64,000 nucleotides of DNA from an uncultured Alphaproteobacteria bacterium (GTDB taxonomy: Bacteria; Pseudomonadota; Alphaproteobacteria; HIMB59; GCA-002718135), in contig CACNLM010000008.1 of assembly GCA_902621305.1 (NCBI GenBank), positions 1 to 64,000 of the forward strand, read 5' to 3'. Position 1 is the first letter of the stretch. Every line of letters begins with the position of its first letter. This document shows, piece by piece, positions 13,982 to 36,788 of the stretch. The translations under genes and the position numbers were made by a program. The notes under the pieces were generated by a model. The model was not told where the DNA came from. It ran no database searches and saw only the letters and a program-made list of their open reading frames with translations.

Positions 13982-14049
13982 ATTTATTTTATTTTATGTT
14001 TTAATTAGTAACAATTTTTTTTTTTAATTGCTAGGTTTCAAGACAAAAC

Positions 14050-14078
14050 TTTCAAGTATTATTAGTTTAAGGTATAAT
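14050..14078 (+). promoter_or_regulatory. Sigma-70-type promoter of ssrA
   Basis: A perfect -10 hexamer TATAAT lies at 14073-14078, preceded at 17 nt by TTTCAA (14050-14055) as a weak -35. Initiation about 7 nt downstream (near 14085) would produce a short 5' extension ahead of the acceptor piece of the tmRNA. Basis: consensus match and position only. Confidence 0.5.
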
Positions 14079-14109
14079 GAAAATGTTGCTTTGCAACTAA
14101 GATAATAAA

Positions 14110-14333
14110 TGCTTTGTGCAATAAATTATTCGGACCCGGGGGCGGTACCCGGCGTCTCCACCAATATGGGGACGAAATAGGTTTGACGGTAATTCAAAGA
14201 CAAAGACTTTATCCGGTATTGTACCACCGTTATCGGGCTATTTTATAAACGCTAACGATAATAGATTAGCACTTGCTGCCTAGATTCTAGGTGAGCGCGG
14301 TCAGGGGCACCGAGCAACAGAACGCCCCATACA
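14110..14333 (+). ncRNA. ssrA: Circularly permuted two-piece tmRNA
   Basis: Transfer-messenger RNA that rescues stalled ribosomes, in the permuted alphaproteobacterial form. The upstream (acceptor) piece contains the T-arm CCGGG-GGCGGTA-CCCGG and the 3' acceptor strand CGTCTCC, then A and CCA (ending 14163). After only 4 nt (ATAT) the coding piece starts with GGGGACG (14168-14174), which pairs fully with CGTCTCC. GGTAATT downstream can pair with AATTATT upstream as helix P2, and ACAAAG with CTTTGT extends it. The tag frame at 14251-14283 reads ANDNRLALAA and stop; with the charged Ala this gives an 11-residue tag ending LALAA, the kind of end recognised by ClpXP. A hairpin GGGGC/GCCCC closes the 3' end. 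End points are estimates. Confidence 0.93.
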
Positions 14334-18653: not shown

Positions 18654-18657
18654 CTTA

Positions 18658-18687
18658 AAAAAAAGTGCTGAAATCAGCACTTTTTTT
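18658..18687. terminator. Bidirectional rho-independent terminator between ftsZ and lpxC
   Basis: Perfect 13-bp stem AAAAAAAGTGCTG / CAGCACTTTTTTT with the 4-nt loop AAAT (18671-18674). Read leftward it ends the ftsZ message with a run of eight T; read rightward it has seven T. The left T-run stops three bases before the lpxC start codon, so either lpxC is read through it or transcription of lpxC starts at or in the hairpin. Confidence 0.85.
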
Positions 18688-18756
18688 AATATATATTTTT
18701 GACGATCTTAACAACTAACCTAATATTTCAAAATATTGCAAATGATGCTATATTTG

Positions 18757-20406: not shown

Positions 20407-20485
20407 TGTATTCTCCGCCGTTTTAAATAGTTTTTAACGATTTAACTCCGAAATCGTCAACAAAATTTACTAGATATAGTATTAT

Positions 20486-21706
20486 CTAAATATACTGATC
20501 AAGCCAAGTAAAAAAGCCTGAAATTCCACGTTTTTTTGAATTTTTTGACTGATTTGCTAAAAAATCAATCTTAAATAAATCTTTATCATACAATATAGAT
20601 CCAATAATGTCGCAAAAATTTGGTTTTTTAAAATTATTTGCCAAATTTAATTGATCTAAGGGATTTGATATTCTCACACCACTTGCAAAAATTGTTTCTA
20701 CATATTTTGCAATACTATCCATCATTGCCCCACCACCAGTTAGAACTACATTATTTAATTTTTTACTTCTTAAATTATTGTCTCTAATTTTTTGCCATAT
20801 CATTTCTAAAGTTTCTTCAATACGTGGTCTAATAATTGCATTTAAACTTGATCTTGTTATTTGTTTAAATGTATTTTTATCGCCTGCAACAATTGGAATT
20901 TCTATTATTTCATGATCATCACTAGGAGATGAAACTAGGGAACCATATAAAGTTTTTAACCTTTCAGCACTGGAAATAGTAGTTGATAAACCTCTAGCAA
21001 TATCTAATGTAATATTGTTACTCCCAACACCTATTGCATCTCCATATACAAATTTATTATTTTCAAAAACAGATATTGAAGATGTTGAATGACCTAAATC
21101 AATACAAATAGTACCAAGCTCTTTTTCATCTTTTGTTAATGATGATAAAGATGAGGATAATGGGGAAGGAATATAATTATCAATATTAAGTTTTAATTTT
21201 TTGATAACACTAGAAATATTATCCGAATATTTTTTTTGAATATTTATTTTATAAAAGTTAATTTTAATATTATCTGAATAATTTCCTATTGGTGCATTAA
21301 AATACAGATTATTGTCGATGTCATATGACGTAATATTATTAAATATTTCAAATTTTTCACTAGGATTATTAAAATATTCTGACTGATTAATTATTTTTTT
21401 TAAATGTAATTCTGAAATTTTCTCGTTTTTTAATTCTATTGCTGAGTTGTAATAATGAGAATTAGAATTTAATAAAGATAGATTAAGATTAACAGAATTT
21501 AATTTAGTTTGAGATTGTTTTTCAGCTTCTATAACTAAAGACTTAATCTGATTATGTAAATTTTCAAAATTTAAAATAATATTTTTTTTAATGTTATTAT
21601 TTGGAACACTAACAATTGATAATATATTAATATTTTCTGTATTTTTATAATCAGCAATTACACATGATATTTTTGAATTACCAATATCTAAACCAGCTTT
21701 AATCAT
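20486..21706 (-). CDS. ftsA: FtsA, division actin and Z-ring membrane tether
   Basis: Actin-family ATPase that anchors FtsZ to the membrane. The 406-residue chain has phosphate-1 GLDIGNSKISCVI, the SHS2 (1C) domain that marks FtsA (about 85-165, quite divergent here), phosphate-2 IDLGHSTSSISVF, adenosine motif NVVLTGGGAMMD and a C-terminal amphipathic tail (SGFFTWLDQYI). It is 1 nt away from ftsQ. Divergence in the 1C domain fits the low G+C bias. Confidence 0.96.
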   Translation of the reverse strand: MIKAGLDIGNSKISCVIADYKNTENINILSIVSVPNNNIKKNIILNFENLHNQIKSLVIEAEKQSQTKLNSVNLNLSLLNSNSHYYNSAIELKNEKISELHLKKIINQSEYFNNPSEKFEIFNNITSYDIDNNLYFNAPIGNYSDNIKINFYKINIQKKYSDNISSVIKKLKLNIDNYIPSPLSSSLSSLTKDEKELGTICIDLGHSTSSISVFENNKFVYGDAIGVGSNNITLDIARGLSTTISSAERLKTLYGSLVSSPSDDHEIIEIPIVAGDKNTFKQITRSSLNAIIRPRIEETLEMIWQKIRDNNLRSKKLNNVVLTGGGAMMDSIAKYVETIFASGVRISNPLDQLNLANNFKKPNFCDIIGSILYDKDLFKIDFLANQSKNSKKRGISGFFTWLDQYI

Positions 21707-21707
21707 T

Positions 21708-22472
21708 TTAATTAATTAAGATTGTTTTTTTTAAATTTCTTAAATCATATATTTTTATATTATTAATATCTGTTTCGCTAAGTTTATTTTGTATCATAAT
21801 AAAATTCTGAATAGATTTATTTGGACTTTCTTCTGAAAGCATTAGTTTCACATCGTCGTATAAATTTATATCCCATCTTCTTTTATTAATAAATTCCAAA
21901 CTCTCAATTTGATATTTTTTTTCAAAATCATAATTTTTTAGAAAATTAATTAATGAATTAGCTTTTAAGTTTGAAGAATTACCCTTGAAAATTAACAATG
22001 ACTGATTAGTGAAATCTGTAATGTAAATTTGATCTATAATTTTTCCATTTTCATCAAAAAAAAAGTATTTCTCGTTAAAAAAATAAATTCCTATTGGTTT
22101 ATATTCTTCAATCCTAACAAATAGAGTATCTTTGTAATTTGTATTTAAATATATTTCTTTGACCCAATTATTTTCTTTTATTGAATCATGAATTTTATCT
22201 AATTGTAACAAAAAAATTGAAGATCCTATATAATTTTGCAATTTATCCTCTACAAATTTTAATTTGATTTTCTCCAAACCTGAAATATCAAATTTTGTAA
22301 ATTGATATTGGAAATTTTCTGAAAAACTCTGAATTATATTTTTAGAGGTCTCAATTAAATTATTTTTGTTAAAATATAGTAAAATAGAAAAAATTATTAG
22401 GAATAAAAAAATACAAAAATAAGTGAATGATCTGAAATTTAAAATATATTTTCTTCTATTAATATTGTTCAT
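21708..22472 (-). CDS. ftsQ: FtsQ, divisome membrane protein with POTRA domain
   Basis: Bitopic divisome protein that links FtsB/FtsL to the rest of the machinery. The 254-residue product has a short basic N-terminus, one membrane helix (FCIFLFLIIFSILLYF, about 18-33), then the POTRA domain with FDISGLEKIKLKFVEDKLQNYIG and the FtsQ beta domain. Sequence conservation is weak, as usual for this family; the position between ddl and ftsA secures the call. Confidence 0.92.
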   Translation of the reverse strand: MNNINRRKYILNFRSFTYFCIFLFLIIFSILLYFNKNNLIETSKNIIQSFSENFQYQFTKFDISGLEKIKLKFVEDKLQNYIGSSIFLLQLDKIHDSIKENNWVKEIYLNTNYKDTLFVRIEEYKPIGIYFFNEKYFFFDENGKIIDQIYITDFTNQSLLIFKGNSSNLKANSLINFLKNYDFEKKYQIESLEFINKRRWDINLYDDVKLMLSEESPNKSIQNFIMIQNKLSETDINNIKIYDLRNLKKTILIN

Positions 22473-22473
22473 A

Positions 22474-23424
22474 CTAATAATTTAAATTTTTTATCAAAAT
22501 AAAAATGATTTCTGAAAAAGATAAATCTTTATAATTTGCTTGTTCGGGTAATAGAGATATTGGAGTAAGTCCAGGTTGAGTATTTGTTTCTAAAAAGAAA
22601 ATTTTATTTTTTTTTGTATCATAAATAAAATCAGTTCTTGCAAGTGAATTACAACCTAATAGTTTATGAACTTTAGTAGCAAATTTAAGACATTTACTAT
22701 AATTTGTTTTATTTAACTTAGCAGGCAAAATATGTTTAGCATAACCTTTCGTATATTTTGCTTTATAATCAAAGAAATGATTTTTTGATTTTATCTCTGT
22801 AACAGCAAGCGCGTGAATTTTTTTATCCAATTTAATAGTCGAAACTGTAAGCTCCCTTCCAGATATATACTCTTCTATTAAAATTTCTTTGTGATTATTG
22901 AAATTCCTTTTAATTTCTTCTAAATTAGAAACTAAAATATTAAATTCTTTTTGATTTTTAATTATTTTTATACCAAAACTTGATCCACTTCTATTGGGCT
23001 TAATAACAAATTTTTTTAACTTACTTTTGATAGTAATTAATTTCTTCTCATTTAAATCATTTATATTTAAAAGATAGTATTTCGGAGACATTAATTTATT
23101 TTTAATAATTTCTCTCTTAGATGCAGATTTATTAAAACATAGATTAGATGATTTGATATTTGAATGAGAAAACGGAATTTTATTTTTTTTTAAAATTTTT
23201 TGAGTTTGTCCATCTTCTCCAAACGGTCCATGTAAAGCATTAATACAAATAAAATTTTTATAATTAATTATTTTTTTATGAAAGTTTTTAGGATTAACTC
23301 TTAATGTCTTAAATTTTAATTTATTTTGATTAAGAATTTTTTGAATTTCTCTAGAGGTTTCTAAAGATACATCGTGTTCTTCATTATTACCACCTTCTAA
23401 AATTAAAATTTTTTTATTACTCAC
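22474..23424 (-). CDS. ddl: D-alanine-D-alanine ligase
   Basis: ATP-grasp enzyme making the D-Ala-D-Ala dipeptide for the wall pentapeptide. The 316-residue protein shows GGNNEEHDVSLETS at the N-terminus, ALHGPFGEDGQ, the ATP-grasp segment VIKPNRSGSSFGIKII, EEYISGRELTV and the metal-binding ETNTQPGLTP. It overlaps the murB stop by 8 nt and is followed 1 nt later by ftsQ. Confidence 0.96.
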   Translation of the reverse strand: MSNKKILILEGGNNEEHDVSLETSREIQKILNQNKLKFKTLRVNPKNFHKKIINYKNFICINALHGPFGEDGQTQKILKKNKIPFSHSNIKSSNLCFNKSASKREIIKNKLMSPKYYLLNINDLNEKKLITIKSKLKKFVIKPNRSGSSFGIKIIKNQKEFNILVSNLEEIKRNFNNHKEILIEEYISGRELTVSTIKLDKKIHALAVTEIKSKNHFFDYKAKYTKGYAKHILPAKLNKTNYSKCLKFATKVHKLLGCNSLARTDFIYDTKKNKIFFLETNTQPGLTPISLLPEQANYKDLSFSEIIFILIKNLNY

Positions 23425-24310
23425 CTATTATTTTTACCTCCCATTCCAATTTTATATTGAATTTGGCATATACTTTTTCAATAATACTTTTACCTAGGTT
23501 TTCTATATCTGTTGCTGAAGCATTTCTTTTATTTATTAAAAAATTTGCATGTTTATCACTCACATACGCATCTCCATAATTGATACCTTTGCATCCAGCT
23601 TCCTCAATTAGTTTTGCCGCATGAAGGTTTTTAGGATTTTTGAATGTACTTCCAGAAGTTTTATTTTTAATTGGCTGAGTTTCTAAACGCTTATTCTTTA
23701 TTTCATTAATCTTGTCTTTTATTAAATTTTGATCTCCATAACTAAAATTAAATATAGCTTTTGTAACTATATCTGTATTATTTATTTTTGAAGACCTATA
23801 TTTTAGATGCAGTTTATCTTTTGTAATTGTTTTTCTTTGGCCAAAATTATCACAGATTTCTATACTATTTATAACATCTACAGTTTCCGAACCATAACAA
23901 CCAGCATTCATTTTAACTGCACCACCTATTGATCCTGGAATACCGCTATAAAATTCAAAACCCTCTATATTTTGTCTTAATGCATAATTTGACAGATTAA
24001 TATCTAAAATACTAGCGCCAACTTCAAGTTTATTATCATTAATATTAATAGTATTAAAACCTTTGCCTAATTTTATAAGAGTTCCATTATATCCGTTATC
24101 TCTAATTAAAAGATTTGAACCTGAACCTATGATGTAAAAATTTTCATTATTTATTTCATTTAGTATAATTTCTAACTCTAAATTGTCTTCAACTATAGCA
24201 AATATTTTTGCGTTACCTCCTGTTCTGAACCAAGTATTTTTACCAGCATTATAATCTAAGTAAATTTTACTTTTAAGTTTATCAGCTAATTCTATAATTT
24301 TTTTTGACAT
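23417..24310 (-). CDS. murB: UDP-N-acetylenolpyruvoylglucosamine reductase
   Basis: FAD/NADPH-dependent enzyme making UDP-MurNAc. The 297-residue length fits the type II (short) form. The FAD domain shows NTWFRTGGNAKIF, IIGSGSNLLI and the segment EFYSGIPGSIGGAVKMNAGCYGSE; the catalytic Ser lies in KTSGSTFKNP. It overlaps murC by one base and ddl by 8 nt. Confidence 0.97.
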   Translation of the reverse strand: MSKKIIELADKLKSKIYLDYNAGKNTWFRTGGNAKIFAIVEDNLELEIILNEINNENFYIIGSGSNLLIRDNGYNGTLIKLGKGFNTININDNKLEVGASILDINLSNYALRQNIEGFEFYSGIPGSIGGAVKMNAGCYGSETVDVINSIEICDNFGQRKTITKDKLHLKYRSSKINNTDIVTKAIFNFSYGDQNLIKDKINEIKNKRLETQPIKNKTSGSTFKNPKNLHAAKLIEEAGCKGINYGDAYVSDKHANFLINKRNASATDIENLGKSIIEKVYAKFNIKLEWEVKIIGE

Positions 24311-25680
24311 TAGTTATTCAAATATTTTTTTGCAATACTTGATATTGAGCCTGCACCCATAAAAACAATGGTATTTTCATTCATTGTATGAGGTTTCATT
24401 AATTTATTTAAATCACCTATATTCTTTAAATATGTAGTATTTTTATTTTTTTTTAATATTTTAGAAAATATATCTTTTGAAGTCGCTCCCTTGATAATCT
24501 TTTCTCCAGCTGAATAAGTTTCTAATAAGAATAAATAATCAACTTTTGATAAAACTTTTATAAATTCTCTAATTAGTGTTTTAGTTCTAGTGTATCTGTG
24601 TGGTTGAAAAACAACTATTACTTTATTTTTTAGACTTTTAGCTGCACTTAATGTAGCTGCAATTTCAGTTGGATGATGCGCATAATCATCATACACAAAG
24701 GAGTTATTTTTTTTTCCAATAAATGAGAATCTTCTTTTAACACCAACATAATTAGTCAAGGCGTTATTAATATCTTTATTTTTTATTCCATTTAGTTTAG
24801 CCACAACAATACTTGCAGTTGCATTTAAAATATTGTGATTTCCGATTGCATTTATAGTAAATTTATAATTAGAAGAATGAATAATTTTATTGTTAATTTT
24901 TAATTTAAAGGAAGTTTTTAGTTTGTTTTGAATAATGTCAAAGATTAATACATCTGCTTTTTTATTTTTTATTGAATAAGTTAAAATATTTCTAGTTTTT
25001 ATTTTGTTAATTAGTAATTTAAGGTTCTTATCATCATAGCACATTATTGTAGTTCCATAAAACGGAAGCAGATTTATAAATTTTTCAAATGCATTAATTA
25101 AATTTTTCTTCGATTTATAAAAATCCATATGTTCAACGTCTAAATTAGTAATAATTGATATTTGATGTGGAAGTTTTAAAAAGGTGCCATCACTTTCGTC
25201 TGCCTCTACAATCATCCATTCACCTTTTCCATAGCGATTATTGTTTGAAAAAGAATTTATAATACCACCATTTACAATAGTAGGGTCTAAACCTGCTTCA
25301 TTAAAAATGTTTCCAACCAAACTAGTAGTCGTAGTTTTTCCATGAGATCCGGCAATAGCAATAGATTTTTTATTTTTCATTAATTCTGAAAGCATATCAG
25401 CTCGAGTAAGAAGAGGTATTTTTTTAATAAATGCCTCTCTTATTTCAGGATTATTTTTTTTTATAGCTGATGAATAAACGACGGCATCGGCATATTTAAT
25501 ATTTTTTTTATTATGTCCTAAAAAAAATTTTATACCTTTTTTCTTTAATCTTTTTGTATTGTCGTTTACTGATATATCACTACCCTGAATCGAATATCCT
25601 TTGTCTAACATCAATTCTGCTATACCAGACATTCCTATTCCTGAAATACCTATAAAATGAATTTTACTATTAATTTTCAT
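24310..25680 (-). CDS. murC: UDP-N-acetylmuramate-L-alanine ligase
   Basis: Adds L-Ala to UDP-MurNAc. The 456-residue Mur ligase has the N-terminal UDP-binding Rossmann domain (IHFIGISGIGMSGIAE), the ATP P-loop GSHGKTTTTSL (about residue 112), the NLDVEHMDFY metal segment and the C-terminal domain with YDDYAHHPTE and FQPHRYTRT. It overlaps murG by 11 nt. Confidence 0.97.
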   Translation of the reverse strand: MKINSKIHFIGISGIGMSGIAELMLDKGYSIQGSDISVNDNTKRLKKKGIKFFLGHNKKNIKYADAVVYSSAIKKNNPEIREAFIKKIPLLTRADMLSELMKNKKSIAIAGSHGKTTTTSLVGNIFNEAGLDPTIVNGGIINSFSNNNRYGKGEWMIVEADESDGTFLKLPHQISIITNLDVEHMDFYKSKKNLINAFEKFINLLPFYGTTIMCYDDKNLKLLINKIKTRNILTYSIKNKKADVLIFDIIQNKLKTSFKLKINNKIIHSSNYKFTINAIGNHNILNATASIVVAKLNGIKNKDINNALTNYVGVKRRFSFIGKKNNSFVYDDYAHHPTEIAATLSAAKSLKNKVIVVFQPHRYTRTKTLIREFIKVLSKVDYLFLLETYSAGEKIIKGATSKDIFSKILKKNKNTTYLKNIGDLNKLMKPHTMNENTIVFMGAGSISSIAKKYLNN

Positions 25681-26755
25681 TTAGTATTAATTTATAAATT
25701 AAAGCGTTTGAGTTTTTAACTTTAATCATATCAAATTTTTTATTCATTGATTCTAATTTTTTTGAATTATTATATGTTTCATAAATATATCTTTTTGCTT
25801 TATCTAAATCATTACTATTTTGATCAATAATTATGGCTAAGTCATGTTTAGCTAATATTTTAGCATTAAAAAATTGATGATTATCTTTTGAAGAAGGTAA
25901 TGGAATTAATATCGAGGGAAGTTTAAAGTCAATTAAATCAATAATTGTTCCTGCTCCAGCTCTACATATTGCTAAATTAGCATAGTCTAGTATTTCATCT
26001 ATATTAGTAAAAAAATCTTTCAAAATGATTGGTAGTTTAATATTTCTTAATTTTTCTTCTTGTTTTTTTATCAAATGTTTAGAGCACTGAAATATAAATT
26101 TTGCGTTTATAATTCTTTCATTATCTATAATTTTAATTAGATTTGTTGCAAAGTTTGATACAAATTCTGATCCCTGACTTCCACCAGAAATAAAAATTGT
26201 AAAAATACTCTCAGAATTTTTATTGCTGATTTTAATATTTTTTTTAAAATTATTTTCCGGTGAGCCTACTACGAATATTTTATCTTTAAACTTTGAATTA
26301 ATTTTAGATTTAATATCAAAATTTAAAAATAATTTATTTGTGAAATTCAGAAAAAATTTATTTGTCCTACCTATTATCGAATTTTGTTCATGGATATATA
26401 TCTTAACTTTATAGAATGGTTTAAATAACATACATGATAACATTGGAGAAAACGAAGCATAACTTCCAAAAGAAATAGAGTGAGATGGTTTTAATAAAAA
26501 TATAATAATAAATGATTGAATTAGTCCTAATAAAATTTGAAATATACCAAAGATTTTAAATATTATGTTCCCATTTAAATTTGATGAACTAATTATATAA
26601 ATTTTTCCATTATAATTATGAAAGTATTTATATCCTCTTTTATCAGTAATAATTGTGCAATTTATATTTTTAATAGATAAATAATTAGCAAAATTTTTCG
26701 CCGGTATAACATGTCCGCCTGTTCCTCCTGTAATTAGTAAAAAATTTTTTTTCAT
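25670..26755 (-). CDS. murG: MurG, lipid II-forming GlcNAc transferase
   Basis: Peripheral membrane glycosyltransferase that adds GlcNAc to lipid I. The 361-residue GT28 protein has the N-terminal TGGTGGHVIPAKNFA loop, the membrane-facing hydrophobic patch (FGIFQILLGLIQSFIII), the second Gly-rich loop SGGSQGSEFVSN, and the nucleotide-sugar site CRAGAGTIIDLIDFKLPSIL followed by PSSKDNHQFFNA. It overlaps ftsW by 4 nt (ATGA) and murC by 11 nt. Confidence 0.97.
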   Translation of the reverse strand: MKKNFLLITGGTGGHVIPAKNFANYLSIKNINCTIITDKRGYKYFHNYNGKIYIISSSNLNGNIIFKIFGIFQILLGLIQSFIIIFLLKPSHSISFGSYASFSPMLSCMLFKPFYKVKIYIHEQNSIIGRTNKFFLNFTNKLFLNFDIKSKINSKFKDKIFVVGSPENNFKKNIKISNKNSESIFTIFISGGSQGSEFVSNFATNLIKIIDNERIINAKFIFQCSKHLIKKQEEKLRNIKLPIILKDFFTNIDEILDYANLAICRAGAGTIIDLIDFKLPSILIPLPSSKDNHQFFNAKILAKHDLAIIIDQNSNDLDKAKRYIYETYNNSKKLESMNKKFDMIKVKNSNALIYKLILNEN

Positions 26756-27813
26756 AATTCTTCATTTTTTTTGTTTGTAAGAGATAATAAAAAACCAAAT
26801 AAAATTGCTATTGATATCATGGAGGAACCTCCATAACTTACAAATGGCAATGTCATACCTTTTGTTGGTATAAGACCTAATGAGCTAAAAATATTAATTA
26901 AGCATTGTAATCCAAATGAGCAAATTAAACCACTAATTGCTATAATTTTATATGGATCTTCAAGTTGTAGAACTTTTAATAAGCTTCTTATTATTATTGA
27001 TAGAATTATAATAATAATGATTAAACAAAAGATAAATCCTAATTCTTCTCCAGCAACAGCAAAAATAAAATCTGTGTTAGCATCAGGAATTTTTTCTTTT
27101 AAAATGCCTTGCCCTGGACCTTTTCCAAGTAGCCCACCATTTATGAAAGCTTGAATACTTAAATCTATTTGGTATGTGTCAGTACCACTTAAACCACCAA
27201 GAAATGAATTGATTCTTGATTGTACATGATCAAAAATAAAATAAGAAAATATCGAAATTCCTAAAATAAATAAAAATGCAACTATAACTAAAAAAATTGA
27301 TAAACCAGCAACAAATAACTGACAAAAAAAAGTTGATGACAGTAAAACTGTCATCCCCAAATCAGGTTGCATGAGTATTAAAGATAAAAGCAAGAAGAAA
27401 AAAATAAACAGTAAAGGTAAATAAAATTTTTTATCCTCTATAGATTTACTTATACACCATGCCGTCAATATGACAAAAATAGGCTTAATTATCTCTGAAG
27501 GTTGTAATGTAAAGTTAAATATTTGAAACCATCTCTTAGCACCTTTAACTTCGTAATCTAAAAAAAGTATTAGCAGTATTATTATTAATAAAATAATAAA
27601 TAAAAATAATGAAATTCTTCTTATATTTTTACTATCTAAGTCTGATAGCGCAATAAGTAGAAAAATTGAAAAAAGAAAAAAAATAGAATGCCTATTTATG
27701 GATAAATTTTCATCTATGGAAAAAGAAAGTATTAATCCCGTAAAACCCAATGATAATATTAATATTACGTTAATTCTATCAATTGAGCTCCACCAATTCT
27801 TTAAATATTCCAT
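26752..27813 (-). CDS. ftsW: FtsW, septal peptidoglycan polymerase (SEDS)
   Basis: SEDS-family glycosyltransferase that works with FtsI at the septum. The 353-residue protein has about ten membrane helices. Conserved SEDS segments include VKGAKRWFQIFNFTLQPSEIIKP, MQPDLGMTV with the catalytic Asp, the loop NTDFIFAVAGEELGF and the C-terminal PTKGMTLPFVSYGGSS. It lies between murD (2-nt gap) and murG (4-nt overlap). Confidence 0.96.
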   Translation of the reverse strand: MEYLKNWWSSIDRINVILILSLGFTGLILSFSIDENLSINRHSIFFLFSIFLLIALSDLDSKNIRRISLFLFIILLIIILLILFLDYEVKGAKRWFQIFNFTLQPSEIIKPIFVILTAWCISKSIEDKKFYLPLLFIFFFLLLSLILMQPDLGMTVLLSSTFFCQLFVAGLSIFLVIVAFLFILGISIFSYFIFDHVQSRINSFLGGLSGTDTYQIDLSIQAFINGGLLGKGPGQGILKEKIPDANTDFIFAVAGEELGFIFCLIIIIIILSIIIRSLLKVLQLEDPYKIIAISGLICSFGLQCLINIFSSLGLIPTKGMTLPFVSYGGSSMISIAILFGFLLSLTNKKNEEL

Positions 27814-27815
27814 GT

Positions 27816-29132
27816 TTAATTAATATAATTTTTAATTAATTTATTAAAATGCATGCCTCTTTCTTCAAAATTTTTGTATTGATCATAAGAGGCACATGCC
27901 GGAGCGAATAATATGGTTGATTGATTTAAATTTTTTTCAATATCCTTAAAGGTTTTTTTGATAACTGATTTCAAATTTGCCGATTTTTTTACATCCAATT
28001 CTTTTTTTAATTTTTTTTCAATAAAGGATGCTGATTTTCCGTAGGTATATACACAGCTAATTTTATTTTTATATTTTAGAAGAATTTCAAAATTTTTTTC
28101 TTTAGCTATGCCTCCTAAGATTAGATAAATATTATTGTAATTTACAACTGAATTTATTGTTGAATTTAAATTAGTAGATTTACTATTATTTATTATTTTT
28201 AATTTATTATTTTTAAAAATTGTAGATGATCTAAATGGAAGACCTCTAAATGTTTTAATAACCTTAAGAAAATTAGTTTCTGGAATTTTTAATATTTTAC
28301 TACATATGTATGCTATTAAAATATTTTGGATATTAAAATGACCTTCTAAGTCTTTTGAGATTTTTATTATTGATAATTTCCTACCTTTTTTAAAGTAATT
28401 ATCTAGAATATAATCATTATTAGCGAAACAATCAGCTGATTTATCAACTAAAGAAAAACTAATTTTATTTTTAATTTTTTTTTGATTAAATATTTTTCTT
28501 GAATAAACATCATCAATAGATAACAAATTAATTCCATTTTTAGATATGATATGTTTTTTTTGGTTAATATAATCACTAATACCTTTGTACCTATCTAAAT
28601 GATCGCCAGATAAATTTGTAATTACTGATATTCTGCTATCAAGTGACTTAACTGTTTCTAATTGAAAAGAACTTAATTCGATGACATGAACTTTATATTT
28701 TTTTTTAAGAAGAAAAGCATTGCATAATGGTTCTCCAATATTACCTCCAACAAATGTTTTAATATTATTTTTTTTTAAAATGTCTCCTATTAATTTGGTT
28801 GTTGTTGATTTCCCATTTGTGCCGGTAATAGCTACAATCTTTTGATTTGTTAAATTCGAAATATATAGATTTAAATCTCTATTTACTTTTTTAAATATGT
28901 TTTTTCTTTTAAATTTTTTTTGTCTTAAAGATATTCCTGGGCTAATATAAATTTTTTCAAAATCATTCAAATTATCTTTTTTGATATTAAAAAAATATTC
29001 TTTTTTATAATTTTTTTTTATAGCTTTTCTTACTATTGGATTATCATCCCAAATTTTAAATTTTATTTTTTTATTTTCAAAATAATTTACTATAGAAAGT
29101 CCTGATTTTTGAATTCCATAAATTAAATACAT
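27816..29132 (-). CDS. murD: UDP-N-acetylmuramoyl-L-alanine-D-glutamate ligase
   Basis: Adds D-Glu to the wall precursor. The 438-residue protein has a divergent N-terminal domain (YGIQKSGLSIVNYFE), the ATP-binding loop AITGTNGKSTTT, ELSSFQLET, VITNLSGDHLDRY and the C-terminal FAPACASYDQYKNFEERGMHF, a MurD signature. Overlaps mraY by one base. Confidence 0.96.
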   Translation of the reverse strand: MYLIYGIQKSGLSIVNYFENKKIKFKIWDDNPIVRKAIKKNYKKEYFFNIKKDNLNDFEKIYISPGISLRQKKFKRKNIFKKVNRDLNLYISNLTNQKIVAITGTNGKSTTTKLIGDILKKNNIKTFVGGNIGEPLCNAFLLKKKYKVHVIELSSFQLETVKSLDSRISVITNLSGDHLDRYKGISDYINQKKHIISKNGINLLSIDDVYSRKIFNQKKIKNKISFSLVDKSADCFANNDYILDNYFKKGRKLSIIKISKDLEGHFNIQNILIAYICSKILKIPETNFLKVIKTFRGLPFRSSTIFKNNKLKIINNSKSTNLNSTINSVVNYNNIYLILGGIAKEKNFEILLKYKNKISCVYTYGKSASFIEKKLKKELDVKKSANLKSVIKKTFKDIEKNLNQSTILFAPACASYDQYKNFEERGMHFNKLIKNYIN

Positions 29133-30220
29133 TATCTAATTCTTAAAGTTGCAAGACCTACCAAAGCTAATACAATGGTAATTATCCAAAAACGAATAAC
29201 TATTGTTGACTCAGGCCATCCCTTTTTTTCAAAATGATGATGTAGTGGAGCCATTAAAAAAACTCTTTTTCCTGTCATTTTAAAAATGAATACTTGGATT
29301 ACAACAGACAAAGTTTCTACAACAAATAAACCACCTATTATTGCAAGAAGAATTTCATGTTTGCATATTATTGCTATTGAACCTAAAGAGCCACCTAATG
29401 CTAAAGATCCAGTATCACCCATAAAAACTTTAGCGGGTGGTGCGTTAAACCAAAGAAAACCTAAAGCAGCACCAATTAAAGAACCACAAAAAACTGCTAA
29501 TTCACCAGTTCCAGGAATATATTGAATAAGTAAATAATTAGAAAAAACTATATTGCCTGAAACATAAGCTATAAAAGCAAAAGACATAGCAACTATCATT
29601 ACAGGCACAATTGCTAAACCATCAAGTCCATCAGTAAGGTTTACTGCATTAGCCGATCCAATAATTATAAATATGGAAATTAGAAAATAAAATATTCCAA
29701 AATCTATAATTAAGTTTTTAAAGAAAGGAAATGTCATAGATTTGCTTATGTTTGGGTCTAAGTTGATAAGAATTAAATATGAAATGAAAAATGAAAAAAT
29801 GATTTGAAGAATAATTCTTATTTTTGATGAAATACCCTCACTTGTATTTGATTTAATTTTTTTGTAATCATCTGCAAATCCAATAGATCCAAAAATAAAA
29901 ATAGTTAAAAGTAAAATCCATATAAAAATATTTTTTAAATCAGCCCAAATAATTGTAGAAACAAAAACACTTAGAATAATCAATAAGCCACCCATTGTAG
30001 GGGTACCTTTTTTTGCAATGATATGTGACTCTGGACCGTCATCTCTTATTGGCTGACCAGTTGGCTGAACATTTGATAACTTGTTAATAATATAATTTCC
30101 AAATATTAGAGAAAAAAATAATCCAGTAAGAATAGAGGCGCCAGCTCTAAATGTTATATAACTAAAAATATTTAGAAAACTAAATAAAGATTGGTATTCA
30201 AAGGCCAAATATTTAATCAA
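29132..30220 (-). CDS. mraY: MraY, lipid I synthase
   Basis: Membrane phospho-MurNAc-pentapeptide transferase making lipid I on undecaprenyl phosphate. The 362-residue protein has about ten helices and the motifs IAKKGTPTMGGLLI, GFADDYKK, NAVNLTDGLDGLAI, FLWFNAPPAKVFMGDTGSL and LMAPLHHHFEKKGW, the last with the family's HHH. It overlaps murF by 4 nt and murD by one base. Confidence 0.98.
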   Translation of the reverse strand: MIKYLAFEYQSLFSFLNIFSYITFRAGASILTGLFFSLIFGNYIINKLSNVQPTGQPIRDDGPESHIIAKKGTPTMGGLLIILSVFVSTIIWADLKNIFIWILLLTIFIFGSIGFADDYKKIKSNTSEGISSKIRIILQIIFSFFISYLILINLDPNISKSMTFPFFKNLIIDFGIFYFLISIFIIIGSANAVNLTDGLDGLAIVPVMIVAMSFAFIAYVSGNIVFSNYLLIQYIPGTGELAVFCGSLIGAALGFLWFNAPPAKVFMGDTGSLALGGSLGSIAIICKHEILLAIIGGLFVVETLSVVIQVFIFKMTGKRVFLMAPLHHHFEKKGWPESTIVIRFWIITIVLALVGLATLRIR

Positions 30221-31584
30221 ATCGATACCTGCTTTAGTAATGTTTTTGCAAATTTATTTATTTTTGTTGAATTAGAACATTTAATTAAAATAATGTCATT
30301 ATTATGCACTTTCTCTTCTAAAAATTGCATGATTTTATTTGTATTTTTAAAATAGATAAATTCATTATTTGGATTAAAAAATTTTTTTATAGATAATTCA
30401 AAGAATTCGCCACATAAAATTACAAATTTAAAAATAGTGTCATCCAATTGTTGTAGTAACTTATAATGAATTTTGGAAGAATCATTTCCTAATTCATTCA
30501 TTGTTCCAAGTATTATTATTTTTTTATTATTCTTTATTTTTATATTTTTTAAATTTTGTATACTTTGCATCATTGTATCTGGATTAGCATTATAAGATTC
30601 ATCAATAATATTTATTTTTTTTTTATTTAAAGAAATTTTATGAACTAATCCCCTACCTTTCACTGGTTTTAAAAACTTGAAACGATTTAGAACTGATTTA
30701 ATGTTCAGAGAATTTTCATTATAAAATGCAAGACAAAATAATAAGTTATTTAATCTATGCATTACTATTGCATCAGTAACAATGTTAACCTTTTTTTTAT
30801 TAATTGATAAAGTTACTTTATGCAATTTTTTATAGGGAGATATTTTTTTAATAAAATATTTTTTTGAAGAATTATCAATACGAATTATTTTAAGATTTTT
30901 TTCTTTTTTTGCTTTTGTGATTAAAATATTTTCAGATTTAGAAGAAACATTGAGATATAGCTTTTTCCTATTATTATTATATTTAGAAATAAATATATCA
31001 GCTTTTTCTCTGGCAATATTATTTTGAGTTTGGAAATTTTCAAGGTGAGTAGATTGTATATTTGTAATAAATACCTCTGATGGTTTGACTAAATTACTAA
31101 GAAATTTTATCTCACCAAAATTATTTGTTCCAATTTCAAAAATTGCATAATTTGATTTTAAATTTAAATTTAGTAAAGAAATTAATACACCTAACTGATT
31201 ATTATAACTTTTCTTTGAGTAAGAAATAGTATGATCTTTTTTTAAGAAAAATGCTAAAGTTTCTTTTAAAGTAGTTTTACCAGCACTGCCAGTAATGCCT
31301 ATTACTTTACCTTTGTATAAATCTCGTTTCGTTTTTGCTATTTTTGAAAGATACTTATAAATATTATTTACATATAAAATTTTTTTATTTTTTTTGAAAT
31401 TTTTATTATCAGTTACACAAAATTTTGCACCTTTATCTATTGCTTCATTTAAAAACTTGTTTCCATGAAACCTTTTACCTTTTAAAGCAAGAAATATATC
31501 GCCACTTTTAATATCTTTACTTGATATTTGAATTTTATCTTTTTTAGATATTATATATTTCTCTAATTGATATAATTCGATCAT
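30217..31584 (-). CDS. murF: UDP-N-acetylmuramoyl-tripeptide-D-Ala-D-Ala ligase
   Basis: Adds D-Ala-D-Ala to the tripeptide precursor. The 455-residue Mur ligase has an N-terminal domain with SSKDIKSGDIFLALKGKRFHG, the P-loop GITGSAGKTTLKE, EIGTNNFGEI and ESYNANPDTMMQSI, which are MurF-specific. It is Lys/Asn-rich throughout. Overlaps murE by one base. Confidence 0.96.
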   Translation of the reverse strand: MIELYQLEKYIISKKDKIQISSKDIKSGDIFLALKGKRFHGNKFLNEAIDKGAKFCVTDNKNFKKNKKILYVNNIYKYLSKIAKTKRDLYKGKVIGITGSAGKTTLKETLAFFLKKDHTISYSKKSYNNQLGVLISLLNLNLKSNYAIFEIGTNNFGEIKFLSNLVKPSEVFITNIQSTHLENFQTQNNIAREKADIFISKYNNNRKKLYLNVSSKSENILITKAKKEKNLKIIRIDNSSKKYFIKKISPYKKLHKVTLSINKKKVNIVTDAIVMHRLNNLLFCLAFYNENSLNIKSVLNRFKFLKPVKGRGLVHKISLNKKKINIIDESYNANPDTMMQSIQNLKNIKIKNNKKIIILGTMNELGNDSSKIHYKLLQQLDDTIFKFVILCGEFFELSIKKFFNPNNEFIYFKNTNKIMQFLEEKVHNNDIILIKCSNSTKINKFAKTLLKQVSI

Positions 31585-33002
31585 TAATTTAATAATTGTT
31601 TAACAATTGTAAAATCATCAAACTTAATTGTTTTATTTTTTAAAACTTGAAATTTTTCGTGCCCTTTACCTGCTACTATTAAAACTTCATTCATTTTTAA
31701 TTCTTTAATAGCTAATTTAATTGCTTTTCTTCTATCAGATACTTCCATAGCTCTAGAACAATACTTTAGAATATTTTTTCTTATTTTAGATGGATTTTCG
31801 TTTCTAGGATTGTCATCCGTTATATAAATTTTATCAGCATATTTGTTTGCAATTAATGCCATTGATTTTCGCTTACTTTTATCTCTATCACCGCCACAAC
31901 CAAATAAAATTGATGGTTTCATTTTTTTGATTTTATAAGCAAGTAGAATTTTTTTCAAAGCATCTGGTGTATGAGCATAATCAATAATAATTTTTGATTT
32001 TTTTTTCTTATACTCAATTGTTTGCAAACGACCTGATGGATTTGTAACTTTTGATAATACTCTTATAATTTTACTTTGACTAATATTAAGTGCTAAGCAA
32101 CAAGTAATCGCACATTCTAAATTTTCTAATTCTATATTTGTTTTAAGTTTTAGATTTTCTAGTTTATATTTTGTATTCTTAATATTCAAATATACAAAAT
32201 CATTGATTTTTATTAATTTTATATTTTTATTTCCGAAATATTTAAATTTTACGTTTTTTTTTATCAATGTTTGTTTTAATTCAGATAAGATGTTTAATCT
32301 TGAATTAATTATAGCAAATCCAGAATTTACTAAATGATTAGAGAAAAGTTTAATTTTAGATTTTTTATAATTTGAAAATGTTTTATGGTAATCAAGATGA
32401 TCTTTTGAAATGTTTGTAATAGCTGCAATATTTATTGGATAATTTCTTAACCTGTTTTGTTCTAGAGCGTGACTTGAAGCTTCAAAAATGAAAATATTTT
32501 TTTCTTTTTTATTCGAAGATCCATATCTAAATAATTCTTCATAGGCAGGTGTTGTTAAATTTATATCATTTATTTTTTTTCCGTTTACAAAATGTCCTAA
32601 AGTACCAACCATTGTATTATTATATTTTAGTGCATTAAGAATTTTTGAAATATACCAAACAACTGATGTCTTTCCATTGGTACCTGTAACTGCTAGTGTT
32701 TTAAAGGGAAGATTGCTATGAAGCTTAGTTAATAAATAATGTATCTCAAAATTAATATTAGATACAACAAATTGAGGAATTTTTAAGTTTTTAATATATT
32801 TATTTGAAATTATAGCAGGAGTTTTATTCTTAAGTACTTCATCTAAATAAATCTTTTTTACCTTTGTATTTTTGTCATAAACAAACAACGTTTTGTTATT
32901 AGTAAATTTTGAGTTAGAGGTAATTGCAGAGAAATATTTATTTTTATTAAAGTTGTACGTTTTATTTACTCTTATAACTTTTGATAAATTAGACAGTAGC
33001 AT
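31584..33002 (-). CDS. murE: UDP-MurNAc-tripeptide synthetase (diaminopimelate-adding)
   Basis: Adds the third stem residue. The 472-residue ligase shows the P-loop AVTGTNGKTSVVWY, TTPAYEELFRYGS, FEASSHALEQNR, SKDHLDYHKTF and the C-terminal DDNPRNENPSKI. The DNPR motif is the one that selects meso-diaminopimelate over lysine, which fits a Gram-negative wall. The start overlaps the end of ftsI by 14 nt. Confidence 0.97.
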   Translation of the reverse strand: MLLSNLSKVIRVNKTYNFNKNKYFSAITSNSKFTNNKTLFVYDKNTKVKKIYLDEVLKNKTPAIISNKYIKNLKIPQFVVSNINFEIHYLLTKLHSNLPFKTLAVTGTNGKTSVVWYISKILNALKYNNTMVGTLGHFVNGKKINDINLTTPAYEELFRYGSSNKKEKNIFIFEASSHALEQNRLRNYPINIAAITNISKDHLDYHKTFSNYKKSKIKLFSNHLVNSGFAIINSRLNILSELKQTLIKKNVKFKYFGNKNIKLIKINDFVYLNIKNTKYKLENLKLKTNIELENLECAITCCLALNISQSKIIRVLSKVTNPSGRLQTIEYKKKKSKIIIDYAHTPDALKKILLAYKIKKMKPSILFGCGGDRDKSKRKSMALIANKYADKIYITDDNPRNENPSKIRKNILKYCSRAMEVSDRRKAIKLAIKELKMNEVLIVAGKGHEKFQVLKNKTIKFDDFTIVKQLLN

Positions 33003-34638
33003 TTAATTTTCTATATAAAAAATTTGTGTCTACTTTTAGAAGATCATCATTTTTATCTTTTGAAATATTAAAAAGGCTTATAATATTAATAATAATATCT
33101 TTTACCAAGGGTGCATTTACTCTTGCTCCAGTCATTCTTTGTTTAGTGCCTGTTTCCTTTTTTGGATACTCAATAGCAGTGTAAACTACATATTTTGGAT
33201 TATTTGTTGGGAATATCCCAATAAAGGACGTTAAGTTTCTATCCTTATAATATCCACCATTTGGATTTAGTAATTCTGATGTTCCCGTTTTACCTCCTAC
33301 AGAATAACCATCTACTTTTACTCTAGGACCAGTGTATTCGGTCTTGAGAACAACAGAATTTAATAAATTGATAAAGAATTTAGATGATTCTTTATTATTA
33401 AAAATTTGATTTTGTTCAAATTGTTTGTTTAATTGAAGTGTAGGAAAAACCTCATTCCCATTATTCGCTAATGTAGCATAAGCTTTAACTAAATGAAGAG
33501 GTGTAATTGCAAATCCATGACCAAATCCTATCGTTGCTGTTTCTAGCTTACCCCAATTATATTTATTTCCTAAAGGAGCTGAGCTTTCTTTATTTTCTAT
33601 ATTTATTTTTTTATTGAAACCTATTTTTTCAAAAAATTCTATTTGGTTTTTTTTTCCAATCAAAGTAGCAATCTGAGCTGTACCAATATTGGATGATTCA
33701 ACAATTATTTTTTCAACATCATAAATACCATTATTTTTATATTTATCATGATCACTTATATTTAAATATTTTTTTGTAACATCAAAAGTCATTTGAGGAT
33801 CTATAATATCTAAATCAAATCCAATAGTGGCAGTTATTGGTTTGAAAGTTGATCCCATTTCATAATTAGACTGAAAAACTCTATTCATTAAATTGTTGTT
33901 ATTATATGAGGATTTGTCCTCAGGATTATAATCAGGTAAGCTTACTGATGATAATATTTGACCGTTAGTAATATCCATAACTATAGCTAAACCGGATTCA
34001 GCTTTATAATTATTTATTGTTTTTAAGAGATTTTTTCTAACCAACTGCTGTAAATTAGTATCAATACTAATAGTTATATCTTGTGATTTTGCGAGATCAT
34101 TTTCAAAATACCTCTCAATGCCACTTTGACCAATTTGATCAATATCTACATATCCAAGAATATGTGACAACGTATTCTTATAAGGATATATTCTTTTAAA
34201 TTCCTTATGAGTTTTGATATTTATTTCACCAAGATTAATTATTTCTTGATATTCAACTGGAGATATATTTCTTTTTATCCAAATAAATTTACTTGTTGAT
34301 AATAATTTTTTTTCTATTTTTTTTATATCTAAATCAAGAATTAATCCCAATTTATTGGCTAGTTCTTTTTTATTTTTTATCTTATTAGGGTTAATTGATA
34401 AAGAGATACTTTCAATTGAAGTAGCAATTATATTTCCATTCCTATCATAAATACTGCCCCTAATATTTTTTTTTATATAATTAGTGGTATCATCATTCAG
34501 ATCAGGAAAGAGCATAATTGACGAGATTCTATAAATAGAAATAAAATAGACAAAGATAAAAATTGTAATTGAAAAAAAAACTCTTCTATGAAGTAATTTT
34601 AAAGAGTCGCTATCAAATAATTTTAGTTTACTTAACAT
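32989..34638 (-). CDS. ftsI: FtsI/PBP3, septal peptidoglycan transpeptidase
   Basis: Class B penicillin-binding protein that cross-links septal wall with FtsW. The 549-residue protein has one N-terminal membrane helix (about 17-35), a pedestal domain with RGSIYDRNGNIIA, and a transpeptidase domain with the active-site STFK (in YEMGSTFKPI), SSN (VESSNIGT) and KTG (VGGKTGTSE) motifs. It follows ftsL by 3 nt. Confidence 0.97.
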   Translation of the reverse strand: MLSKLKLFDSDSLKLLHRRVFFSITIFIFVYFISIYRISSIMLFPDLNDDTTNYIKKNIRGSIYDRNGNIIATSIESISLSINPNKIKNKKELANKLGLILDLDIKKIEKKLLSTSKFIWIKRNISPVEYQEIINLGEINIKTHKEFKRIYPYKNTLSHILGYVDIDQIGQSGIERYFENDLAKSQDITISIDTNLQQLVRKNLLKTINNYKAESGLAIVMDITNGQILSSVSLPDYNPEDKSSYNNNNLMNRVFQSNYEMGSTFKPITATIGFDLDIIDPQMTFDVTKKYLNISDHDKYKNNGIYDVEKIIVESSNIGTAQIATLIGKKNQIEFFEKIGFNKKINIENKESSAPLGNKYNWGKLETATIGFGHGFAITPLHLVKAYATLANNGNEVFPTLQLNKQFEQNQIFNNKESSKFFINLLNSVVLKTEYTGPRVKVDGYSVGGKTGTSELLNPNGGYYKDRNLTSFIGIFPTNNPKYVVYTAIEYPKKETGTKQRMTGARVNAPLVKDIIINIISLFNISKDKNDDLLKVDTNFLYRKLNATV

Positions 34639-34641
34639 TAA

Positions 34642-34956
34642 TTAATTATTTGAACTAACAAGCTTGATATTTTTATCTTGATTTGAAAGTTCTTGGATTT
34701 TTACAATAAGAGGAACATTATTGTTTTGAGTTTCATAAAAATACAATTCATATAGTGTTTTTAAATATGAGCTATTTTGATGAGCAGCTAATTCAATCTT
34801 ATTAATTTTTAAATTTTCTGAAATTTTAGATATTTTCATTTTCAGATTTTGATTATTTTTTTCGATTTCTCTTGTATTGTTGGCAATAAAAATCATTGAA
34901 AAAACCAATATTAAATTAAGAATTAAAAAGAATATAATTGATTTAGTATACTTCAT
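34642..34956 (-). CDS. ftsL: FtsL-like small divisome protein
   Basis: A 104-residue bitopic protein with one N-terminal membrane helix (IIFFLILNLILVFSMIFIA, residues 8-26) followed by a Lys/Glu/Asn-rich coiled coil (about 30-65) and a short tail. FtsL is poorly conserved; the call depends on topology, length and its place between rsmH and ftsI in the dcw cluster. FtsL acts with FtsB and FtsQ to activate FtsW-FtsI. Confidence 0.8.
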   Translation of the reverse strand: MKYTKSIIFFLILNLILVFSMIFIANNTREIEKNNQNLKMKISKISENLKINKIELAAHQNSSYLKTLYELYFYETQNNNVPLIVKIQELSNQDKNIKLVSSNN

Positions 34957-34958
34957 TA

Positions 34959-35897
34959 TTAAATTTTTTGAGCTACCCGAAGTTTTGCTGATCTAGATCT
35001 GGGATTATTTATAATCTCAGAAGCTGATGGCAATATTGGTTTTTTGGTGATTATTTTAAGTTGAGTTGCCAGTTTATCAGGTAACTCCGGGTAGTGGCGG
35101 GAGGAACGCCATCGTTTACCACTATTGTGGTTAAAAAAATCTTTCACAATTCTATCTTCTAGACTTTGGAAAGAAACTACTAAAATTAAACCATCTTTAT
35201 TTAAAATCTTTAAAGTTTTTTCTAAACTCGTCTTTAGTTCATTTAACTCATCATTTACATAAATTCTAATTGCCTGAAATGTTTTTGTAGCAGGATGAAT
35301 CTTATTTTTTAATTGATTCTTTTTTGGTAAACATTTTTTAATAATGTTTGATAATTCTATTGTGTCACTAATAAATTTTATTTTTCTGTTTTTTACTATT
35401 TCTTTAGCAATAACTCTTGAATAACGTTCTTCTCCATATTGATAAATTATGTCAGCTAAATTTTTTTCTTCATAATTATTAATTATATCATAAGCATTTT
35501 TATCTGAAGCACCCATTCGCATATCAAGTGGTCCAGATTTGTTGAATGAAAAACCTCTTTGCGCATTATCTATTTGATTTGAGCTTGTACCTATATCAAA
35601 AAGAATTATGTCAAATTTTTTATCTTTAAACTTAGTATTATTTACTATTTCTTCAATTTTACTAAATTTATCATTTATTAGAATAAAATTTGAAAATTTG
35701 GATTTTATTTCTTTAGCAAATATTTTTGAAATCGGATCCCTATCTATTGCTAACAACTGATTTACATTAAATTTTTCAAGAATAGTTTTTGAATAGCCAC
35801 CACCACCAAAAGTTGCATCTATTACATTTATTGATTTTTTTAATGGCAGAAAGGATATTATTTCATTAATCATTACTGAATTATGTAAATTTTCCAT
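34959..35897 (-). CDS. rsmH: 16S rRNA (cytosine1402-N4)-methyltransferase
   Basis: SAM-dependent methyltransferase (MraW) that modifies C1402 of 16S rRNA. The 312-residue protein shows VIDATFGGGGYSKTIL, LAIDRDP, ILFDIGTSSNQID, RGFSFNKSGPLDMRM, HPATKTFQAIRIYVNDEL and VVSFQSLEDRIVKDFF, all family motifs. It is 1 nt from mraZ and 2 nt from ftsL. Confidence 0.98.
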   Translation of the reverse strand: MENLHNSVMINEIISFLPLKKSINVIDATFGGGGYSKTILEKFNVNQLLAIDRDPISKIFAKEIKSKFSNFILINDKFSKIEEIVNNTKFKDKKFDIILFDIGTSSNQIDNAQRGFSFNKSGPLDMRMGASDKNAYDIINNYEEKNLADIIYQYGEERYSRVIAKEIVKNRKIKFISDTIELSNIIKKCLPKKNQLKNKIHPATKTFQAIRIYVNDELNELKTSLEKTLKILNKDGLILVVSFQSLEDRIVKDFFNHNSGKRWRSSRHYPELPDKLATQLKIITKKPILPSASEIINNPRSRSAKLRVAQKI

Positions 35898-35898
35898 A

Positions 35899-36360
35899 TT
35901 ATTTTTGTTGTGTTAACATCATACGTAATGATTTTTTTTCTTTTAAAAGACGTCTTCTTGAATCTTCAGTATTTTTTAAACCTTGTTTAGGTTCCCATAT
36001 CTGAAAAAAATGTCCTTGACCGAAAAAAGCTGCCTCCGTTTTTATACCTGCATATAATTTTAATTCCTCTGGAATTAAGAACCTTCCTTCTTTATCAACA
36101 TTAGTTGTAACTATTTCAGAAAATATTGATGTTGAGAAATCATCATAATCTTCCGAAAAAAAATCTAGGTTGTTTATTCTTTTTGCGATTTCTTTTAATC
36201 GTCCAACACCACATCCTTCAATGGATGGTGATTTAATAGATTTATATAAAATGATTTCATTTCTGTTAGCTTTTGGAAGAACATTTCTAAAACTAGATGG
36301 GAGAGAAATTCTTCCCTTCTTATCTATTTTATTAATATATTTAGATACAAATAAATCCAT
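35899..36360 (-). CDS. mraZ: MraZ, transcriptional regulator of the dcw cluster
   Basis: DNA-binding regulator with two SpoVT/AbrB-like halves, each with a D-x3-R core: IDKKGRISLPSSFR and VDKEGRFLIPEEL. The 153-residue length is normal. MraZ is known in E. coli to bind TGGGN repeats ahead of its own gene and repress the cluster; four such boxes lie directly upstream here. It is the first gene of the leftward dcw run down to ftsZ. Confidence 0.96.
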   Translation of the reverse strand: MDLFVSKYINKIDKKGRISLPSSFRNVLPKANRNEIILYKSIKSPSIEGCGVGRLKEIAKRINNLDFFSEDYDDFSTSIFSEIVTTNVDKEGRFLIPEELKLYAGIKTEAAFFGQGHFFQIWEPKQGLKNTEDSRRRLLKEKKSLRMMLTQQK

Positions 36361-36366
36361 TAATTG

Positions 36367-36401
36367 TGGGTTATCATGGGATTATATGGGCGTCAATGGG
36401 T
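36367..36401. promoter_or_regulatory. Four MraZ-type TGGGN operator boxes
   Basis: On the + strand, TGGGT (36367), TGGGA (36377), TGGGC (36387) and TGGGT (36397) recur at an exact 10-bp period with 5-bp spacers, 6 to 41 bp ahead of the mraZ start. E. coli MraZ binds direct TGGGN repeats with 5-nt spacers, so this is very likely the autoregulatory operator. One helical turn per box puts all boxes on the same DNA face. Confidence 0.85.
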
Positions 36402-36409: not shown

Positions 36410-36420
36410 TTATTAGATAT

Positions 36421-36435
36421 GTTCTTAGTATGTTC
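36421..36435. promoter_or_regulatory. LexA-type site GTTC-N7-GTTC upstream of mraZ
   Basis: GTTC at 36421-36424 and 36432-36435 are separated by exactly seven bases. This is the direct-repeat LexA operator known from alphaproteobacteria. The two halves lie in a longer repeat, TATGTTCTTA at 36418 and 36429 (11-bp period). The site is about 60 bp from the mraZ start and just downstream of rnpB. Function is inferred; at this base composition about one chance match of the pattern is expected somewhere in a window this size. Confidence 0.35.
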
Positions 36436-36447
36436 TTAAAAAATATA

Positions 36448-36783
36448 AAGATGGTGCATAAGCCGGGTTCTGTAATTTATAAAAATTGATGATCATTAAT
36501 CTAGAACAGATGTCACCATCTGTTTCAAGCAGTCTACCCGAAAAGCTCAGCTGGAACTGATTGCCTTTCCTATTTGACCTTGCTCCAAAAAGGGTTTGCA
36601 AAGCCTTTTTTGTTACCAAAAAAGCGGTGAGCTCTTACCCCACCATTTCACCCTTACCTTTACAGGCGGTATATTTTCTGTTGCACTTTCCCTAAGCTTT
36701 CACTTGCCAGGTGTTACCTGGTTTCTTTTCCAGTGGAGCCCGGACTTTCCTCTTGATTACTCAAGCGATCATCGCACCATCTT
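36448..36783 (-). ncRNA. rnpB: RNase P RNA (type A)
   Basis: Catalytic RNA of RNase P, which trims tRNA 5' leaders. On the minus strand the 5' end AAGATGGTGCGATGAT and the 3' CACCATCTT form helix P1. Conserved blocks follow: GAGGAAAGTCCGGGCTCCA near the 5' end, a GGTAAGGGTGAAATGGTGGGG-type core near 36640-36660, and the 3' ACAGAACCCGGCTTA. The total of about 336 nt is compact but normal for the class. End points are taken from the P1 pairing. Long open frames crossing this region are not genes. Confidence 0.95.
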
Positions 36784-36788
36784 AGATG

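Follow-up and report, generated by a model that had tools for sequence, protein, structure and literature searches.

The mraZ locus and its upstream gap

We studied a GTTC-N7-GTTC motif in the window, i.e., in the whole stretch of 64,000 nucleotides of DNA from a marine bacterium that was analysed. The motif lies within the 82-bp gap of a co-directional gene pair, rnpB and mraZ, both on the minus strand. mraZ heads a co-directional run of genes, the dcw cluster, that closes with ftsZ and lpxC. The respective features are as follows.

36443-36784, minus strand: rnpB, RNase P RNA of class A, with its 3' end 7 bases from the operator
36418-36427 and 36429-36438, plus strand: direct repeat of the 10-bp unit TATGTTCTTA with an 11-bp period, equal to both half-sites of the operator
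36421-36435, no strand assigned: putative LexA operator GTTCTTAGTATGTTC, based on the exact motif match and its conservation in the genus
36367-36400, minus strand: four MraZ-box-like repeats (TGGG on the plus strand, CCCA on the minus strand) with a period of 10, conserved in the genus alignment
36391-36396, minus strand: TTGACG between MraZ boxes, candidate -35 element of an mraZ promoter, suggested by its conservation
36381-36386, minus strand: TATAAT between MraZ boxes, putative alternative -10 element
35899-36360, minus strand: mraZ, the first gene past the operator
34959-35897, minus strand: rsmH (mraW)
34642-34956, minus strand: small ftsL-like protein, assigned by position only, no Pfam match
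32989-34638, minus strand: ftsI (transpeptidase)
29132-33002, minus strand: murE, murF and mraY, with murE and murF distinguished by order only
17781-29132, minus strand: murD, ftsW, murG, murC, murB, ddl, ftsQ, ftsA, ftsZ and lpxC, the co-directional remainder of the cluster

Within this remainder, ftsW, ftsA, ftsZ and lpxC were identified by Pfam, and the other genes were recognised by sequence and order only. The repeats at 36367-36400 are the likely MraZ boxes. Their spacers read TTGACG, TATAAT and TGATAA on the coding strand. That is, TTGACG and TATAAT sit exactly within the spacers (36371-36396, minus strand), and bound MraZ would thereby mask the promoter of its own gene. With TTGACG as the -35 element, mraZ would be almost leaderless in most of the genus; the leader is longer in L172-L174 and contains GGAG. 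Elsewhere, the window holds a tmRNA gene of the permuted, alphaproteobacterial form (14046-14331, plus strand).

The operator reads GTTCTTAGTATGTTC on the plus strand and GAACATACTAAGAAC on the coding strand of the dcw cluster. GTTC-N7-GTTC is long established as a LexA motif and is stated as such for the class in the respective passages of PMC8565304 and PMC3323433 and for Caulobacter in those of PMC12700426. A first-pass annotation of this DNA had placed the motif within a direct repeat between rnpB and the MraZ boxes. Both are indeed there: the motif at 36421-36435, and the repeat as a 10-bp unit whose 11-bp period yields the two half-sites. The annotation's estimate of about one chance match per window agrees with the 0.72 matches expected from shuffled sequences, where at least one match occurred in 53/100 shuffles. 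It was also right that the UvrD-type helicase gene lacks the operator, since the only exact match in the whole window is the mraZ site. Such a lone match is near chance level and proves nothing without comparison. Nor is there an excess of the bare motif across the assembly (13 matches vs. 24 for the reversed control).

Conservation of the site in the genus and the class

Within the genus sample, mraZ was found in 41/61 genomes (this one included). One locus (L064) is cut at a contig end and was left out; the 40 loci that were read comprise 30 close members, again including this genome, and 10 distant ones. This genome and 29/29 close relatives carry the exact GAAC-N7-GAAC ahead of mraZ. We also considered 57 named loci, of which 52 have an MraZ at least 66% identical and were assigned to the genus. 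All 52 carry the exact motif, with the set overlapping that of the close relatives, and the five others (Rickettsiaceae or alike) show no operator at mraZ.

In the alignment of this genome with the 52 loci (n=53), both GAACA half-sites are invariant, in contrast to the remainder of the centre and to the linkers. Between the box and the first MraZ box, CCCATTGACG, there are 20 nt in 48/53 sequences and 18-21 nt in all 53, and the distance to mraZ is 60 nt in 47/53. For three sequences, the start codon is 78-83 nt away from the box due to a leader that is about 20 nt longer; the spacing to the MraZ boxes is still held.

Among the ten more distant members, both half-sites are intact in five, and the second half-site is damaged in the other five. 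The latter (L058, L060-L063) represent a natural loss of the operator at mraZ. Their lexA box is intact in 4/4 cases with lexA found (of five; among the matches listed). In the sister family, no operator was seen at mraZ in 9/9 loci read, with 31 members having MraZ.

We then extended the comparison to the class, i.e., the Alphaproteobacteria as judged from named relatives. From 143 sampled genomes, 121 have an MraZ match. Besides this genome and G061, this leaves 119 loci, of which 110 were read and 9 were left out. Each region was scanned from 400 bp upstream to 60 bp into the longest mraZ frame; three of the 110 regions have less than 150 bp upstream and were retained. As the mraZ start is that of the longest open reading frame, distances are approximate and some starts are perhaps misplaced.

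The exact operator is found in 40/110 upstream regions, from 37 families, and is absent from the other 70. In dinucleotide shuffles, we observed on average 1.2 such loci with a maximum of 5 in 200 runs. For all other spacers between 0 and 20, at most 3 (GAAC) or 4 (GTTC) loci each were found. Allowing for one mismatch, spacer 7 gives 62/110 loci compared to 16-30 for spacers 3-6 and 8-12, where these looser counts are noisy. Letters that were not part of the search pattern agree as well: an A follows the first half-site in 37/42 boxes and the second half-site in 38/42, with about 10 expected. Among the control words, CAAG-N5-CAAG occurs in 10/110 loci, which is above every other control word; CAAG-N7-CAAG occurs in none.

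The arrangement of the box is less uniform within the class. It is oriented one way in 30 loci and the other way in 10, and the first MraZ box is 22-228 nt away. Of the 20 box-bearing loci scanned (of 40), 15 have an upstream rnpB of the same orientation, with the box located 0-307 nt past rnpB. An RNA element of rnpB is rejected as an explanation, given the flipped orientation of the box and its variable distance to rnpB.

Presence of the box also relates to presence of LexA: 40/90 genomes with LexA have the box at mraZ, compared to 0/20 genomes without LexA (Fisher's exact test, p=5e-5, ignoring kinship). Genomes without LexA are mostly small, and when split into three size classes none is significant on its own (0.13, 0.49, 0.42); the product of the zero-class probabilities across size classes is 0.015, again ignoring kinship. 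That is, genome size accounts in part for the co-occurrence. Taken together, these sequence comparisons indicate that the putative operator at mraZ occurs beyond this lineage; LexA control of division genes may be ancient in the Alphaproteobacteria.

LexA and the repeat at SOS genes

The first-pass annotation had named a genome without lexA as evidence against its reading. Taken literally, this is what we see: no lexA was found in this assembly (87% complete, 41 contigs). Yet a search of this genome plus 100 relatives gave a LexA_DNA_bind match in 79/101, 76 of them over the curated cut-off, and a LexA protein of the genus (L088:981-1601) combines a DNA-binding domain with an S24 peptidase domain. 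Furthermore, when the 2.6-kb lexA neighbourhood of a relative was compared with this assembly, just two weak matches of 45-65 bp were obtained (40/217 candidates scored). A gap in the assembly is thus the likelier cause of the missing lexA, because its neighbourhood is missing too and 79/101 genomes have the match. A loss of the SOS system in the lineage, as prompted by the absent lexA, is rejected on the same grounds. In six genomes of the genus (G015, G017, G022, G038, G040, G053), lexA is located about 1.3-1.5 kb from a contig end, as if at a shared assembly breakpoint.

In all 24 genus lexA loci read, the repeat adjoins the lexA start, 23 times as GAACATATATAGAAC and once as GAACGTATATAGAAC. 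For some of these loci, the longest frame begins before the box, and the usual start is just after it. Six loci of the sister family (L074-L079) have lexA directly behind another gene and no GAAC-N7-GAAC at the lexA start; here, the LexA motif may have changed.

For the class, we considered the best 30 of 111 genomes with a match and found the motif near the lexA start in 25/30. In the class lexA boxes, the first half-site is mostly followed by T or C (seven read GAACTAAACTAGAAC), while in the class mraZ boxes it is followed by A. In contrast, within the genus both mraZ and lexA boxes show A at this position, with one lexA box excepted. With respect to this letter, the class mraZ boxes are nearer to the Caulobacter SOS box quoted in PMC12700426 than the class lexA boxes are. 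In one class locus (L199), the mraZ box matches, letter for letter, the box given there for two Caulobacter SOS genes.

Within this genome, 4/13 exact matches are intergenic, namely upstream of recA, umuDC, nrdA (ATP-cone ribonucleotide reductase) and mraZ, and the other 9/13 are inside open frames. nrdA is a less common SOS target. In L002, L101, L103, L104 and L119, the motif separates nrdA from a divergently oriented gene for a winged-helix response regulator. The first-pass annotation had suggested comparing the sites at recA, lexA and uvrA of the same genome. This comparison is positive for recA, and also for umuDC and nrdA; for lexA it is positive in the relatives only; and none of the four intergenic matches is assigned to uvrA, which itself was not located.

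We also used the narrower pattern GAACAWANNNAGAAC, which was built after seeing the lexA, recA, umuD and mraZ boxes, such that its results are partly circular. It has 5 matches in this genome vs. 1 for the control, and 33 vs. 2 in six relatives. Individual loci were taken from among the matches listed, which gives 30 of the 33. Of these, 22 are upstream of lexA (6), recA (5), nrdA (4), mraZ (4) and umuD (3), and the remaining 8 are inside genes (six in a trmE-like gene, two in other frames). Sites of this type recur within the trmE-like gene of L005, L096, L097, L106, L110, L111 and L123; the gene is presumably trmE, and the recurrence may stem from coding constraint or from real sites.

Given its conservation in the genus, the motif shared with lexA (in relatives), recA, umuDC and nrdA, and the class survey, the reading of the site as a LexA operator is supported. 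Judged from these alignments and scans, the site upstream of mraZ is very probably a LexA operator of the alphaproteobacterial direct-repeat type.

Direction of control and known systems

LexA acts as a repressor by default. In the class set, sigma-70 promoters over the operator are not enriched (mean rank 0.50 for 42 boxes; 6/42 at ≤0.1), i.e., a promoter overlapping the operator is not supported for the class. In the genus, an overlapping pair with a 16-nt spacer (e.g., TTGAGA/TATCAT) is among the two best promoter candidates in 23/53 sequences. There, the box precedes the likely -35 element TTGACG, unlike a classical repressor site.

What the sequences show is the operator with its conservation and its match to the lexA box, together with a genus LexA that carries both family domains; that LexA binds the site, which way it acts and how division responds are what we infer from these data. 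On balance, we consider it probable that the site is a working LexA operator that restrains mraZ/dcw transcription and that mraZ is released first upon damage. In undamaged cells, LexA would sit between rnpB and the MraZ-box promoter and restrain part of the transcription into mraZ and the dcw cluster, which may stem from a promoter near the operator or from read-through from rnpB that would be blocked. DNA damage would activate RecA, LexA would cleave itself, and mraZ would be released first. MraZ is itself a repressor whose boxes follow directly downstream, and it could then limit the rest of the cluster.

The arrangement can also be read the other way round, with LexA activating the mraZ promoter from upstream; dcw expression would then fall upon damage and division would slow, with no dedicated inhibitor involved. 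LexA is reportedly an activator of recA in Rhodobacter sphaeroides. We consider activation at mraZ improbable, but it is a live rival, because the box is upstream of the conserved TTGACG and there is no excess of promoters over the box. No promoter convincingly overlaps it, and the near-fixed 20 nt to the MraZ boxes within the genus fit a contact with the polymerase. In addition, ciprofloxacin lowers mraZ mRNA in Corynebacterium glutamicum, a distant actinobacterium, according to the respective passage of PMC5055667. On the other hand, the distances of 22-228 nt and both orientations found across the class fit a repressor or a roadblock to rnpB transcription better than activation.

We consider it very unlikely that the operator serves a different target, i.e., the output of rnpB, an antisense transcript or a small gene between box and mraZ. 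Here, the short distances past rnpB (7 bases in this genome, 0-307 nt in 15 class loci) are to be weighed against the only 60 nt to mraZ in most genus sequences, against rnpB being transcribed towards the box, and against small open reading frames in the gap that do not line up among the 15 class loci listed. Least probable of all is a chance match or a site of another protein that resembles a LexA box: the window count does not exceed the roughly one match that chance would give, the genome count is below its control, and the class boxes at mraZ do not share with those at lexA the letter that follows the first half-site. Still, we reject chance because of the conservation (52/52 named loci) and the class survey, whose excess is specific to spacer 7, and both readings are countered by the close likeness of the site to the boxes of lexA and SOS genes.

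Returning to LexA as a repressor at mraZ, one can think of a checkpoint: cleavage of LexA would raise MraZ, which would shut its own boxes and the dcw cluster, such that wall synthesis and division pause without a SulA- or SidA-like inhibitor. It is thinkable since E. coli cells that overproduce MraZ become lethally elongated, as stated in a passage of PMC4446571 that cites other work. We nevertheless regard such a checkpoint, taken together with an old origin in the Alphaproteobacteria, as doubtful.

If the proposed control by LexA holds in many alphaproteobacterial families, SOS control of division via dedicated inhibitors would be an incomplete picture for the class. MraZ, whose role is still unclear, would gain a physiological trigger, and streamlined ocean bacteria with few LexA sites would gain a direct link from damage to division.

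Within the literature searched, no link between LexA and mraZ was found for Alphaproteobacteria. In the text searched of four papers that deal with LexA or SOS and include Alphaproteobacteria, the word mraZ is absent (PMC13384398, PMC3323433 (main text), PMC12700426 and PMC6473078); locus tags could hide the gene. PMC3323433 is a comparative study of LexA regulons that includes alphaproteobacterial families. For Caulobacter, a small RNA is described that putatively targets mraZ, in an account that, within the respective passage, does not involve LexA (PMC8959179).

Compared to the known alphaproteobacterial LexA operator, the half-sites and the spacer are the same here, and the same repeat is found at lexA, recA and umuDC of the genus. 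What differs is the target: mraZ/dcw is not named in the passages on the class of PMC8565304, PMC3323433 and PMC12700426. The first-pass annotation had called such a target unusual SOS wiring, which is only partly right, as LexA sites at mraZ/dcw have been published for gut Gram-positives and E. coli. For Gram-positives from human-gut metagenomes, a predicted LexA site at mraZ was gel-shifted by the LexA of B. subtilis (passage of PMC3998124). That is, they share the LexA site upstream of mraZ, with evidence in vitro only, but belong to another phylum. The wiring looks independent of that in Alphaproteobacteria, because of this difference in phylum and because the Gram-positive motif is palindromic (GAAC-N4-GTTC, passage of PMC3323433). 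For the dcw cluster of E. coli, repression by LexA with three SOS boxes is recorded in a figure of PMC3265435 adapted from EcoCyc; the link between LexA and the cluster is alike, while the motif differs (CTGT-N8-ACAG, passage of PMC8565304). Finally, SulA, YneA, SidA and DivS tie LexA cleavage to division as dedicated inhibitors, whereas here the putative operator heads the division cluster itself.
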